From Anabaena sphaerica FACHB-251 (GTDB lineage Bacteria; Cyanobacteriota; Cyanobacteriia; Cyanobacteriales; Nostocaceae): a DNA stretch of 64,000 nucleotides. The notes below the pieces were generated by a model that was not told the DNA's origin, searched no databases, and worked only from the letters and a program-made list of their open reading frames with translations. Shown here piece after piece: positions 32,838 through 39,165 of the stretch (position 1 is the first letter of the stretch; each line of letters starts with the position of its first letter). The stretch is from NCBI RefSeq assembly GCF_014696825.1, contig NZ_JACJQU010000001.1:186001-250000 (forward strand), read 5' to 3'. Both the position numbers and the translations under genes were made by a program.

Positions 32838-34580
32838 ATGAATGAAACCTATACAACCGATGTCCTAGTTGTCGGAGGAGGAACAGGTGGAACTGCGGCC
32901 GCTATCCAAGCAGCACGCAGGGGCGCTAAAACTATCCTCGTAAGCGAATTTTCCTGGTTAGGTGGAATGTTAACATCCGCTGGCGTAGCTGCGCCTGATG
33001 GCAATGAATTACAATCGTTTCAAACAGGTTTATGGGGAGCATTTATACAAGAATTACGCCAACGACAACCAGGAGGACTAGATAATAGTTGGGTGAGCTT
33101 TTTTAGTTATGATCCGCGTATAGGTGCAGAAATTTTTGCAGACTGGGTACAGGAATTACCTAATTTACAATGGATATCAGGAAAAATCCCTTTAGAAGTC
33201 TTGCGTCAAGGCGACTGTATTACAGGTGTACACTTTGCAGATTTCACAGTCAACGCCAAAATTATTCTTGATGGTACAGAATTAGGTGATTTATTAGCTT
33301 TAGGGGAAGTACCTTACCGTTGGGGTTGGGAACTAAAATCAGAGTGGGGAGAACCCAGCGCCCCAGCAAGTTTTAACTCGCTTACCGAACAATACCCTGT
33401 TCAAGCGCCGACTTGGGTAGTGGTAATGGAAGACTTTGGGGAAAATGTCGCCCCAAAGATTTCACCTGCTCCCAATTATGATCCATCCTTGTTTACAGGG
33501 GCTTGGGATGATTATGGGGCAGAAAAATTTTTAAACTATGGACGTTTGCCTGCAAATCGGTTTATGATCAACTGGCCTATTTGTGGCAATGACTACGGCC
33601 AAGATGCCGGGCGTTTGATAAAGTCAAATATAGCAAGACGTGAGTTTACCCAAGAATGTTTCTGGCATAGTCAAAACTTTGCCCATTTTATCCAAACTCA
33701 CCTTGGTAGACGCTACGGTTTAGCACAAGGAGTTTTTCCTAGTCTCTCTCCAGCTTTTGCACTTCATCCCTATTTTCGGGAAAGTCGCCGCTTAGAGGGA
33801 CTCATTACTGTCTGTGAGCAGGATATCCTGCCGTTAGCAGGTGGTAGAGTTGCAGCTAAGTTTGAAGATGCGATCGCAGTTGGTAACTACGCCAATGACC
33901 ATCATTATCCTGGTGTCAAGTTCTCACTGCAACCCAAATCTATTCGCTGGGGAGGACGTTGGACTGGAACACCCTTTACCATTCCCTATCGTTGTCTGAT
34001 TCCTAAGTCTACAGATGGTTTGCTGGTGTGTGAGAAAAATATTTCTGTGTCCCATATTGCTAATGGGGCTACCAGACTGCAACCAGTAGTCATGGGTATT
34101 GGTCAAGCCGCAGGTATGGCGGCTGCTCTATGTTGTGAGCTAAATTGTCAGCCCAGGGATTTGCCCGTGAGGATGCTGCAAACAGCTTTATTAACGGATG
34201 AGCGATCGCCTACAGCAATTGTTCCCTTGTTCAATTTACCAATCAATCATCCAGAGTGGTTAAACTGGCAAATTCGTTATTTAAACAACCCAGAAACTTA
34301 TCCCACAAGTGGAAATTGCCCATGTTTATCGATTGATCAGTGTGATTACTCTAATCTTGATTGTTTCATAGGAATTTTTAATCGCCTAGACCTACAAGAT
34401 TACAGATTTACTATCACAAACTCAACTGAATTATCACCGCTAACTTGGCAGATTGTGACTTTGGGATCTTCTGTTGATGAGCAATTGCAATTCCTGACCC
34501 AAAAACAAAAGCTCGCTGTCTGGGGTCGTCCAAATTCATCTGGTAACTGGCTACTTGTCGAACATATCGACGAAGTATAA
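32838..34580 (+). CDS. FAD-dependent oxidoreductase
   Basis: A 580-residue flavoprotein from the ATG at 32838 (a TTG three codons upstream is an alternative). The dinucleotide-binding motif VLVVGGGTGGTAAAIQAA is at about residues 9-26. The overall pattern (SWLGGMLTSAGVAAPDGNE near 41, ILDGTELGDLLALGE near 142) fits the FAD_oxidored/PF12831 group of putative dehydrogenases. No signal peptide. The substrate is unknown. It precedes patX by 107 bases on the same strand, but patX has its own promoter-like motif in that gap. Confidence 0.85.
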   Translation: MNETYTTDVLVVGGGTGGTAAAIQAARRGAKTILVSEFSWLGGMLTSAGVAAPDGNELQSFQTGLWGAFIQELRQRQPGGLDNSWVSFFSYDPRIGAEIFADWVQELPNLQWISGKIPLEVLRQGDCITGVHFADFTVNAKIILDGTELGDLLALGEVPYRWGWELKSEWGEPSAPASFNSLTEQYPVQAPTWVVVMEDFGENVAPKISPAPNYDPSLFTGAWDDYGAEKFLNYGRLPANRFMINWPICGNDYGQDAGRLIKSNIARREFTQECFWHSQNFAHFIQTHLGRRYGLAQGVFPSLSPAFALHPYFRESRRLEGLITVCEQDILPLAGGRVAAKFEDAIAVGNYANDHHYPGVKFSLQPKSIRWGGRWTGTPFTIPYRCLIPKSTDGLLVCEKNISVSHIANGATRLQPVVMGIGQAAGMAAALCCELNCQPRDLPVRMLQTALLTDERSPTAIVPLFNLPINHPEWLNWQIRYLNNPETYPTSGNCPCLSIDQCDYSNLDCFIGIFNRLDLQDYRFTITNSTELSPLTWQIVTLGSSVDEQLQFLTQKQKLAVWGRPNSSGNWLLVEHIDEV

Positions 34581-34624
34581 AATTGATTTTTTTGCAGTTA
34601 AATACAATACTTTTTTATAAATTG

Positions 34625-34630
34625 TCCGGA
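34625..34630 (+). promoter_or_regulatory. TCCGGA motif upstream of patX
   Basis: The hexamer TCCGGA lies 57 bases before the patX ATG. In Nostoc PCC 7120 TCCGGA near -35 marks a class of heterocyst-specific, HetR-dependent start sites (the DIF promoters, including nsiR1). A possible -10 (TAAGTAT or TATCAG) lies 17-20 bases downstream. The match is exact but the motif is short and palindromic. Confidence 0.6.
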
Positions 34631-34687
34631 TCATTAGATAAAAGCTAAGTATCAGTGAAGTAGAGAGTTCTAAAATAGACATCTACT

Positions 34688-34924
34688 ATGCGTGCTGCCA
34701 TTTCACTTTTAGTATCGAGTCTGGTATTCGGCTCCTTAGCTTTTAACTACGAAGCAGAGTTCACTAGCCTTTCCCGGTTGCTGATTGCTAATTCTGGTTC
34801 AGGAGATCTGCTTGCAGACAATTCCAAACCCGGTCCAAACCAACCAGAACAGCCAGCGCCTCATCGCGGTAGTGGACGTAAAGAGTCAATGGAGTTTTTC
34901 AGCAATATCCATTCTCTTGTTTAA
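34688..34924 (+). CDS. patX: PatX, RGSGR-containing heterocyst inhibitor precursor
   Basis: A 78-residue exported precursor. The N-terminal 19 residues (MRAAISLLVSSLVFGSLAF) look like a signal peptide. A Pro/Asn/Gln-rich linker leads to HRGSGR at residues 59-64, followed by a 14-residue tail. RGSGR is the pentapeptide of PatS that binds HetR and targets it for inactivation; PatX proteins carry it as HRGSGR inside a signal-peptide precursor and are widespread in filamentous cyanobacteria. It is preceded by a TCCGGA motif and followed by a 64-bp tandem repeat array. hetR is 14 kb away on the other strand. Confidence 0.93.
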   Translation: MRAAISLLVSSLVFGSLAFNYEAEFTSLSRLLIANSGSGDLLADNSKPGPNQPEQPAPHRGSGRKESMEFFSNIHSLV

Positions 34925-34962
34925 CAACTGTAGCTTCAGACCGCTTGTAGGAGAATTCATTG

Positions 34963-35185
34963 CCAGTAAAGCAATTAAGTTATGGAATGACTGGGTGTTT
35001 ATCGTCCTTTACACAAGTTGTAGAACAGAGACAGTTAAAGCACTACATCGCTCATCCACAGTTCCAGATTTTATTTTCTTTGACAGAGATATAAACAGTT
35101 AAACCACTACATAACTCAGTCATCGTTTCAGACTTTATCTTCTCTGACAAAGACACAAACAGTTAAAGCACTACACAACTTCACA
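34963..35185 (+). repeat. 64-bp tandem direct repeats after patX
   Basis: Two full units begin at 35031 and 35095 with ACAGTTAAA(G/C)CACTACAT and are about three quarters identical by eye. A third, truncated unit begins at 35159 (26 matching bases), and a degenerate unit starts near 34963. Period 64. Conserved parts include CCAG(A)TTTTAT and CTGACA(A/G)AGA. No ORF spans them. They are positioned like a repeat-encoded small RNA, comparable in unit length to NsiR1, but sequence identity with NsiR1 could not be checked. Confidence 0.8.
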
Positions 35186-35951
35186 AATCAGCAACGGTTG
35201 AGCATTTCCTCAAAACATCCGGTAATTGTGGTTAACCTGGCGTATATTGGTAACTTATTGACTCATATACGTACTAATCTAGCTTTCTTCAAATGCTTTT
35301 GTATTGCATTGAGTTTCTACAGGTTGAAGAGGCAAGCTGAAAAACCAGGTGAGTAGTCCTGAGTTGACACAAATATTGACAACCTTATCCAATCATGGTC
35401 AAGCATATACAAAACTACGAGTATGCCTTATGTATAGAGCTTGTCATGTTAGCAACAAAATGTTTTTCTTGTTGCTCATAATGGATTAAAATCCATCAAT
35501 TAATTGCTTGCGTTTGGCTAAAGCGTGTTCGCGCAGCGTTCGCTTTGCGAATATGCTTATGGAGGGATAACCGCTCCCATGCTCCCGTTGAAGTAAGAAG
35601 TAAAGGTCTAGACTCGTCTAGGGTTTATATAGCAGAATAGGACTGTTATTTCTGTGATGAAACCGTTAAATTTGGTGTGATACCAAGCTCGTTGGAATAT
35701 TTAGTATTGTTTGAGATTCATGGAACAGCCTATTAGTGTAGGGGCAGGTTCAGGCATCTGTTAAAAGTAGTGGATACGATGTTTGTTCCTGCCTCTACTG
35801 TTAATCCACAATCTCAAATCCAAATTGGTCTGATGGACTGTTAACGGTTATGCCACTGAAGGCAATAAGATTTCTGCATTATATTAAGCTGGTTTTTGAC
35901 ACTCCCCGGTCTAAAGACGCGGGGATTCTACATTCATAGACTCAAGGGTTT
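35186..35951. other. Long non-coding region downstream of the patX repeats
   Basis: About 765 bases with no gene. It contains a TCCGGT near-motif at 35218-35223; a GC-rich palindromic repeat at 35520-35555 (GTTCGCGCAGCGTTCGC); an inverted repeat at 35710-35818 with outer arms TTTGAGATT/AATCTCAAA and inner arms near GTAGGGGCAGG/CCTGCCTCTAC; and a CCCCG(G)/CGGGG hairpin at 35895-35930 like those at IS200/IS605 ends. hetF is not present here. Confidence 0.55.
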
Positions 35952-37010
35952 TCAGCCTTCTTTCTTATAAGCAATAAAATATTTGCTCAGAAAGTGGACT
36001 TGTATCTCTATGTCTTGAAAGCCCACTTTCTCTAATCGCTCTACCAAGTCATCAGCAATGTAATGTCTGTAGTATGGTTCATGGAACATCTTGGGGAAGC
36101 CATCCATCATATCAGCTAAGTCAGGTGAATCATTCATTTGAATCGAATCACAGATAATTAAAACTCCTCCTGGTTTGGTGACTCGGAAGCATTGCTCAAT
36201 AACTGTCTGACGTACTGAAGCTGGTAACTCATGAAAAAGAAAAACAGAAGTTACAGCATGAAAATAATTATCTAGATAAGGTAATTCTTCGGCATTAGCT
36301 TGCAAAAGCTGCGGCAATTCGCCCGGATTTTGACACAATAGTTGATTAGCCTTACGCAAATAAGCTGGCGATAAATCTGTACCAAATAAAGACGCTTGAG
36401 GCATAGCTGCTCTTATCAACTTCAATGTAGCTCCTGTGCCACAAGCTACATCCAAAATGCGGAGTTGTCTTGGGGGAAGTCCCTGGAATTTTTGCAGTCC
36501 ATGTTTAAGGGGAGCCAGAATCCGCCGTCTCATAGGATTGGCTGCACCACCAAAGAGAATTTCTACCTGTAAGTCATACAAGTTTGCTGACAGGTCGCTC
36601 AAATAACCATCAGTTTGGTGATGGAAGTTCTGCAAATAATAGTTGGGATAACCCTCTTGATATGTTTCTGGGGAAAAATCTTGATATCTATTTTGTGTGA
36701 TTCGTTCCCACATCTGGGGTAAATCTAGACAAAGCATTGGATAGTAACGAAAAAAGTCTTCCCAGGAGTTATCAAATAATAAACTTTGGGGATATATTTG
36801 TTTTTGGGCATCCTGCCAATCTGCCTCTAGCAGCTGATTTAACCTGTTTTGTAGTTTGACAATCACCTCTGGAGAGGCGTTGCTCATTTGAACTACTGTG
36901 GGGTGGACTAGGTTTCTTAACTGTGAACTGAGGATTTTGTGAGCCAGGCCAAAGTAATTTTTGCTCTGTTGAAAGGTTTGATAAGTCAGCTTTGTTAAGT
37001 TATCCAGCAT
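35952..37010 (-). CDS. Class I SAM-dependent methyltransferase
   Basis: A 352-residue protein with a C-terminal methyltransferase domain (about 180-345). Motif I is ILDVACGTGATLKLI near residues 187-201, followed by GTDLSPAYLRKA near 212 and the post-I region QANAEELPYLDNYFHAV near 237. The N-terminal 170 residues are a helical extension of no assigned family. The ubiE-like motif pattern suggests a small-molecule substrate, but which one is unknown. ATG start. Confidence 0.85.
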   Translation of the reverse strand: MLDNLTKLTYQTFQQSKNYFGLAHKILSSQLRNLVHPTVVQMSNASPEVIVKLQNRLNQLLEADWQDAQKQIYPQSLLFDNSWEDFFRYYPMLCLDLPQMWERITQNRYQDFSPETYQEGYPNYYLQNFHHQTDGYLSDLSANLYDLQVEILFGGAANPMRRRILAPLKHGLQKFQGLPPRQLRILDVACGTGATLKLIRAAMPQASLFGTDLSPAYLRKANQLLCQNPGELPQLLQANAEELPYLDNYFHAVTSVFLFHELPASVRQTVIEQCFRVTKPGGVLIICDSIQMNDSPDLADMMDGFPKMFHEPYYRHYIADDLVERLEKVGFQDIEIQVHFLSKYFIAYKKEG

Positions 37011-37254: not shown

Positions 37255-37331
37255 AGAATTATGGCTATTATGAATATGTGAAGCAAAAAAGTTAATCAAC
37301 TATTACTAAAAAACTAGAGAGGATGGTAAGT

Positions 37332-37532
37332 ATGTCTATTCAAGAAAAATCTCGTGCGTTAATGGTACGTCAACATCAGCAAGTTAAGAACCGTCAACAA
37401 TCAATGCTGATGCGTGCTACACAGGAATTAGGTCTTCCCCAAGAACTATGCCACTACTGGAACCCCATTCAAGGGAAGATAGATCCTACTACACAAACGC
37501 TTTATAGCAGCAGTCATGCTTCCATGAGCTAA
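37332..37532 (+). CDS. gifA: Glutamine synthetase inactivating factor IF7
   Basis: A small basic protein that binds and inhibits type I glutamine synthetase when ammonium is plentiful. From the ATG at 37332 it has 66 residues; AGAGAGG lies nine bases upstream, whereas the ATG at 37323 is too close to it. The family pattern is clear: ALMVRQHQQVKNRQQSMLMR near residues 9-28, rich in the Arg residues that contact GS. The C-terminal half carries WNPIQGKIDP. It is convergent with glnA, its target, as in Nostoc PCC 7120. Confidence 0.9.
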   Translation: MSIQEKSRALMVRQHQQVKNRQQSMLMRATQELGLPQELCHYWNPIQGKIDPTTQTLYSSSHASMS

Positions 37533-37749: not shown

Positions 37750-39165
37750 TTAGCAATCGTAATAGAGGAAAAATTCGTAAGGATGGGGACGCAACTGCAT
37801 CTGCTTAACTTCGTTAGCCAGTTTGTAGTCAATCCAGTTTTGAATGAAATCTTCTGAGAATACGCCAGTTTCGGTTAAGAAAGCATGGTCATTTTCCAGT
37901 GCTTCTAAAGCCAATTCCAAAGAACCTGGAGTAGAAGGAATCTTAGCTAGTTCCTCTGGAGAAAGTTCATAGATATTCTTATCTAAAGGTTCACCAGGAT
38001 GGATTTTGTTCTTGATACCATCAATACCAGCGCAAAGCATAGCAGCAAACGCTAAGTAGGGGTTAGAAGTCGCATCTGGACAACGGAACTCTAACCGCTT
38101 GGCTTTGGGGTTATTACCAGACAGAGGAATCCGCACAGAAGCAGAACGGTTCCCTTGGGAGTAAGCCAAGTTTACTGGTGCTTCATAACCAGGTACTAAA
38201 CGCTTGTAAGAGTTTGTAGTGGGGTTGGTGATTGCTAACAATGCTGGAGCGTGTTTGAGAATACCACCAATGTAGTATAGTCCCATTTCACTCATACCAG
38301 CGTACTTGTCACCAGCAAATAAAGGCTGACCGCCTTTCCAAATAGATTGGTGACAGTGCATACCGGAACCGTTATCACCAAAAATTGGTTTTGGCATGAA
38401 AGTAACGGTTTTGCCGTACTTTCTAGCAACGTTTTTGATGACGTATTTGTAGGTCATTAGCCAGTCTGCTGCTTCGATGAGTTTACCAAAGCGGAAACCG
38501 AGTTCGCATTGACCACCAGTAGCAACTTCGTGGTGTTGCTTTTCAATAGGTACGCCACAGTCTTTCATAGTTAGCAGCATTTCTGTCCGCATATCTTGAA
38601 AGCTATCCGTTGGTGGAACTGGGAAGTAACCTTCTTTGAAGCGGGTTTTGTAGCCCAGGTTGGGGCCTTCCTCTCTACCAGTATTCCAACGACCTTCTAC
38701 AGAATCTACGTAGTAGTAACCTGAGTTGGCGGTTTGGTCGTAGCGAACATCATCAAAGATGAAGAATTCAGCTTCTGGACCAAAGAAAGCTGTGTCACCA
38801 AGTCCTGTAGAAGCAAGGTAGTCTATTGCTTTTTGAGCAATTACACGGGGGCAACGGTTATACCATTCGCCTGTGCGTGGTTCTTTAATGCTACAAATAA
38901 TACTTAGAGTTGGCTCTTTCATGAAGGGGTCGATCCAAGCTGTGTTTGGATCTAACACCATTGTCATGTCTGATTCTTCGATGCCTTTCCAACCCCGAAT
39001 GCTGGAACCGTCGAAAGGAACACCATCAGTGAATGAACTTTCATCGATTTGGTCCTGGTACATGGTCAAATGTTGCCAAGTCCCTGGTGTATCAATGAAT
39101 TTCAGATCAATCATCTGAATGTTTTTGTCTTGAATCATTTTCAAGACTTCTTTTGGGGTTGTCAT
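37750..39165 (-). CDS. glnA: Glutamine synthetase, type I
   Basis: A 471-residue enzyme that condenses ammonia with glutamate, the entry point of nitrogen in cyanobacteria and in heterocysts. Signatures include [17 protein letters not shown] near 50-66, [19 protein letters not shown] near 258-276 (ATP site), and the late [20 protein letters not shown] block near 355-374. The usual adenylylation-site region is replaced by [10 protein letters not shown] near 398-407, in line with control by IF proteins rather than adenylylation. NtcA-type promoter upstream, terminator downstream, gifA convergent. Confidence 0.98.

Follow-up and report, generated by a model that had tools for sequence, protein, structure and literature searches.

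PatX belongs to the inhibitors that set the spacing of heterocysts, the nitrogen-fixing cells in cyanobacterial filaments, and the control of patX has so far been studied through its promoter, its peptide, and its peptidase. Yfr1 is a stand-alone small RNA gene with a terminator and an unpaired conserved core. Tandem copies of a small RNA are known in the heterocyst pathway from NsiR1 (PMC9045159), and ApcZ is a small RNA derived from the 3' end of the apcABC operon, whose promoter lies within apcC and whose target is known (PMC8136909).

Here we analyze tandem repeats that lie directly 3' of patX in Anabaena sphaerica FACHB-251, within a stretch of 64,000 nucleotides (hereafter the window). 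On comparative sequence grounds, the repeats are a tandem amplification of a previously undescribed patX-downstream element. No title or abstract dealing with such a patX 3' element was found in the open literature, where the patX papers were covered by term only.

The patX Locus and Its Tandem Array

In an alignment of PatX with 22 relatives, the pattern MR...S...RGSGR is invariant, and 211 of the 218 genomes of the family have a match to a PatX profile. An upstream TCCGGA (the DIF1 box) is present in 133 of 135 distinct patX loci, usually 63 nt before the start codon. Of the 135 distinct loci, 104 have a GTAN8TAC sequence 5' of this box, and 90 of these 104 place it exactly at position -91 relative to the start codon; the window carries a GTT variant (Table 1). 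A 105-aa frame (34785-35102) was rejected as a gene, as it overlaps patX in another frame and is without support. Near patX, a gene for a GifA-like product (glutamine synthetase inactivating factor; 37323-37532, + strand) adjoins glnA (37750-39165, - strand).

Table 1. Positions of patX, its upstream sites, and the downstream repeats in the window
Feature	Position	Strand	Description and basis
GTTN8TAC, relaxed NtcA-type site 5' of the patX DIF1 box	34597-34610	+	Sequence
DIF1 box TCCGGA of the patX promoter	34625-34630		Sequence
patX	34688-34924	+	ORF of 78 aa with PHRGSGR motif and a signal-like N-terminus
Conserved block 3' of patX, ahead of the first copy	34963-35030	+	Not a repeat unit
Repeat unit 1	35031-35094	+	Core ACAGTTAAAGCACTACA at 35031-35047; repeat search, TRF, element profile, exact-core search
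Repeat unit 2	35095-35158	+	Core ACAGTTAAACCACTACA at 35095-35111; TCTTTGACAGAGATATAA before it at 35077-35094; same searches as for unit 1
Repeat unit 3	35159-35222	+	Core ACAGTTAAAGCACTACA at 35159-35175; kept to ~35180, diverged beyond; same searches as for unit 1
TCCGGT, single-base variant of DIF1 (TCCGGA)	35218-35223		Past the array; sequence

A sequence-only reading of the window had reported a 64-bp, non-coding tandem array directly 3' of patX, and this was borne out by TRF, a repeat search, and shuffling. TRF delimits 35031-35180 with a period of 64, 2.3 copies, and a score of 195. In the repeat search, two 64-nt segments are 78% identical, and a 23-nt core occurs three times at spacings of 64 and 64. 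The best self-match of 34925-35400 scores 46, whereas none of 500 dinucleotide shuffles exceeds 13.5. The array is judged not to code, because its 64-bp period is not a multiple of three and single-base indels are common.

The extent of the array had to be revised. It had been said to start 39 bases after the patX stop and to hold two full, one truncated, and one degenerate unit; its first copy in fact starts 106 bases past the stop, and there are three copies, the third of which diverges. The supposed fourth, degenerate unit at 34963 is rejected, given that this segment has no match to the element profile and that its likeness to the unit is marginal (43 of 1,000 shuffles are as good). By eye, the same segment matches another conserved block, found ahead of the element in species with one copy.

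The TCCGGT pointed out just past the array is present, as a variant and not an exact DIF1 box. Since it is located after the array, it cannot drive it. By eye, it is part of a ACATCCGGTAATT stretch common to some close relatives. A TATATT follows it 19 bases on, and 35218-35250, partly common to close relatives, may contain a weak DIF1-like promoter.

Comparison with NsiR1

The sequence-only reading had proposed a kinship with NsiR1, a HetR-dependent RNA of ~60 nt, noting that hetF is absent; this is true of the window, not of the genome. A CHAT-domain search with inspection of the loci places hetF on contig C13, where seven matches to the Rfam model of NsiR1 (RF02399; 63-71 bits) lie upstream of it (L229:2800-3784). 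These copies are mostly spaced 133-138 bp apart (~135), with one larger gap, and each is preceded by TCCGGA at ~36 nt and ends in a G/C-rich stem with a T run.

With these seven matches in the same genome as a positive control, the patX array has no RF02399 match at E-values up to 10 in 34500-36000. The patX repeats show no similarity to the hetF array above that of shuffles (39 of 300 score as high). No unit contains a TCCGGA box, and a simple consensus scan of the + strand from the patX stop to the array end, and on to 36000, detects nothing terminator-like. The patX array lies on contig C1 and hence not upstream of hetF, from which NsiR1 diverges. We therefore reject the patX repeats as NsiR1, there being no covariance-model match, DIF1 box, terminator, or hetF neighborhood. 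A search by the spacing of exact TCCGGA boxes returned only unrelated repeats, and not NsiR1. Separately, 76-bp tandem repeats with TCCGGA in each lie between hydrogenase/NADH dehydrogenase subunit-like genes and not beside hetF (L188; G103:C1:4261434-4261819).

Conservation and Distribution of the Element

The DNA 3' of patX was read in 197 loci, 135 of them distinct. An element profile finds at least one copy in 79 of the 135 distinct loci: 44 loci have a single copy, 15 have two, 18 have three, and two have five. As this profile was seeded from the same patX loci, its E-values are not independent, and the genome-wide searches described below are the better test. All copies are on the plus strand, and the first begins 65-157 nt past the patX stop (median 90). 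A single copy is found in Nostoc, Desmonostoc, Komarekiella, and Fischerella; the number is two to five in Anabaena, Dolichospermum, Aphanizomenon, Sphaerospermopsis, and Cylindrospermum. Each 64-bp unit of Cylindrospermum can be seen to hold a whole element of the single-copy type, which runs from a short hairpin-like stretch past the core to GTATTTCATC. In 56 of the 135 loci the element is either absent or unrecognizable, among them a group (L196-L200) that we infer to be near PCC 7120, the model strain; remnants such as CTCTTTAGCACAAGTACA are visible by eye in that group and score no match to the profile.

The sequence-only reading had also entertained a patX-linked repeat or a separate family, and both are supported by the conservation of the unit 3' of patX in relatives. 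It had held that a lack of such conservation would speak against its proposals, an objection that falls away because the unit is conserved there.

The core has the consensus ATAnACAGTTAMAGCACTACA. Among 92 copies taken from loci with several copies, the most frequent base per column has an average share of 0.86 within the 18-base core versus 0.57 outside it, and the best 18-column window reaches 0.88, compared to at most 0.83 in 5,000 column permutations. In Dolichospermum the regular spacing of copies is lost and the cores are kept. The copies are thus kept individually, since cores are conserved while spacers drift and Dolichospermum cores survive the loss of spacing, which argues against neutral slippage. 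A reading of the core as an NtcA site was rejected: the core has GTT N7 TAC, a spacing one base short.

In a tree of the FAD-type protein encoded upstream of patX, a branch with support 99/92 separates 30 multi-copy rows and the single-copy genome G013 from all 54 single-copy or element-free rows. This is consistent with a single amplification followed by one reduction, a direction of change that we infer, because the midpoint root served for drawing only. Two small-genome relatives have a single copy (L004 and L162, from G013 and G207), with G013 inside the multi-copy branch.

The element is closely tied to patX. In seven genomes searched, the exact core occurs only at patX; matches with two mismatches away from patX are few, and the five inspected are all in coding sequence. 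Across 18 genomes, a sequence-only covariance model gives E < 0.002 at patX alone, with the best place elsewhere at E 0.006; as the model was built from these loci, its informative part is the absence elsewhere. A query with the Nostoc element returns one strong place per genome in all eight Nostoc genomes, and genome-wide multiplicity of the kind seen in dispersed cyanobacterial repeats was not found, the element being confined to patX in the genomes searched. The orientation of the element relative to patX is always the same. The gene 3' of patX varies (a convergent methyltransferase, a same-direction Pit-like permease, glutamine synthetase, and others), and the element stays with patX despite these changes. 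Upstream, the FAD-type gene is kept in nearly all loci.

RNA Folding and Strand Composition

RNAalifold leaves the single-copy element, the repeat units, and the extended element without predicted pairs, and single units fold no better than shuffles. Two stems drawn by hand before the single-copy element have weak and mixed pair support. The first 250 nt past patX consist of 32% A, 21% C, 17% G, and 30% T. C exceeds G in 113 of 129 loci over the first 250 nt, versus 62 of 129 at 400-650 nt downstream. This G-poor composition would fit an unpaired RNA on the patX strand, short of proof of transcription.

Possible Functions of the Array

The lack of a fold together with the G-poor patX strand leads us to favor a single-stranded binding-site element in the patX 3' UTR. 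Also in its favor are the plus-strand position of the element shortly after patX, its confinement to patX in the genomes searched, its persistence across changes of the 3' neighbor, the constraint on the cores, and the lack of terminator-like sites ahead of the array end in the consensus scan. The 56 loci without a recognizable copy and the weak pair support of the stems count against it. As a tentative reading that we consider quite possible, the array would be a putative unstructured binding-site element in the patX mRNA, multiplied in one lineage. Transcription of patX from its DIF1 promoter would run on through the array, and a trans-acting factor, either an RNA-binding protein or a small RNA, would recognize the unpaired, G-poor core as single-stranded RNA. 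That factor may set how stable the patX messenger is, how well it is translated, or where it is located in the differentiating cell, and two to five copies would offer more binding sites and so stronger control.

Cutting of the patX transcript between the repeats would instead yield ~64-nt small RNAs derived from the 3' UTR, whose unpaired core would pair with target mRNAs; a diffusing peptide and a cell-bound RNA would then both come from one transcript. The conserved core could be a seed, a short hairpin-like and then A/U-rich stretch lies ahead of several copies, and there are precedents both for 3'-end-derived small RNAs in cyanobacteria (ApcZ, PMC8136909) and for tandem small RNA copies in this pathway (NsiR1, PMC9045159). 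We nevertheless consider such RNAs unlikely, as the array ends without a terminator in the simple consensus scan, as complementarity of the core to the patX mRNA and to the glnA, gifA, FAD-gene, and methyltransferase leaders is not above that of shuffles, and as the five near-matches inspected elsewhere are coding sequence. A linear conserved motif with variable copy spacing and no conserved RNA structure would suit sites in DNA just as well, each core binding a transcription factor that acts on patX or on antisense transcription from downstream. What makes this doubtful is that the copies occur in one orientation only and always past the patX stop, that G is lost in a strand-specific manner, and that the exact core is found nowhere else in the genomes searched, which is unusual for a multi-target regulator.

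An NsiR1-like architecture, in which an independent small RNA has its own promoter in or before the array, would draw on the TTTACA-like and TATATA-like stretches that flank the single-copy element in Nostoc. In the window, however, the TATA stretch ahead of the core is absent from units 1 and 3, the TTTACA stretch is absent from units 2-3, a promoter scan finds no promoter on the + strand at the array, and the units are devoid of DIF1 boxes, so that we hold an independent RNA to be very unlikely. Variation of copy number and spacing among relatives is what functionless repeats, made by neutral slippage or recombination, might be expected to show; yet the single-copy element is conserved across genera, cores are fixed where spacers diverge, and multiple copies occur in only one branch of the tree, where 30 of the 31 rows keep them, and it is hard to credit that the array is neutral. 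A further, rather improbable idea is that the patX transcript carries two signals, the diffusing inhibitory peptide and a repeat-dosed tail RNA that would act only inside the producing cell, for instance by protecting it from its own inhibitor.

If the conserved element in the patX tail is a real control, it represents an unstudied layer over a patterning signal. The group taken as close to PCC 7120 has no recognizable copy, which could explain why the element was missed. Because copy number differs between lineages, its effect on heterocyst spacing is open to comparative test.

Relation to Known Systems

The STRR, LTRR, and HIP1 repeats are dispersed in many copies over the genome, whereas the patX element is confined to patX. 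NsiR1 shares with the patX array its tandem repeats in non-coding DNA by a heterocyst-control gene and a similar transcript-sized unit. The two differ in that NsiR1 copies have their own DIF1 box and terminator beside hetF, while the patX repeats are without both and have no sequence match to NsiR1; array spacing in this genome is ~135 bp for NsiR1 versus 64 bp for the patX repeats. Like the patX element, Yfr1 has a short, strongly conserved, unpaired C/A-rich core, but it stands alone with a terminator, has another core, and has no link to patX. ApcZ has a promoter inside apcC and a target, whereas the patX copies are in tandem, without a terminator or promoter found by scan; as in ApcZ, the patX element sits 3' of a protein-coding gene to which it belongs and whose strand it shares.
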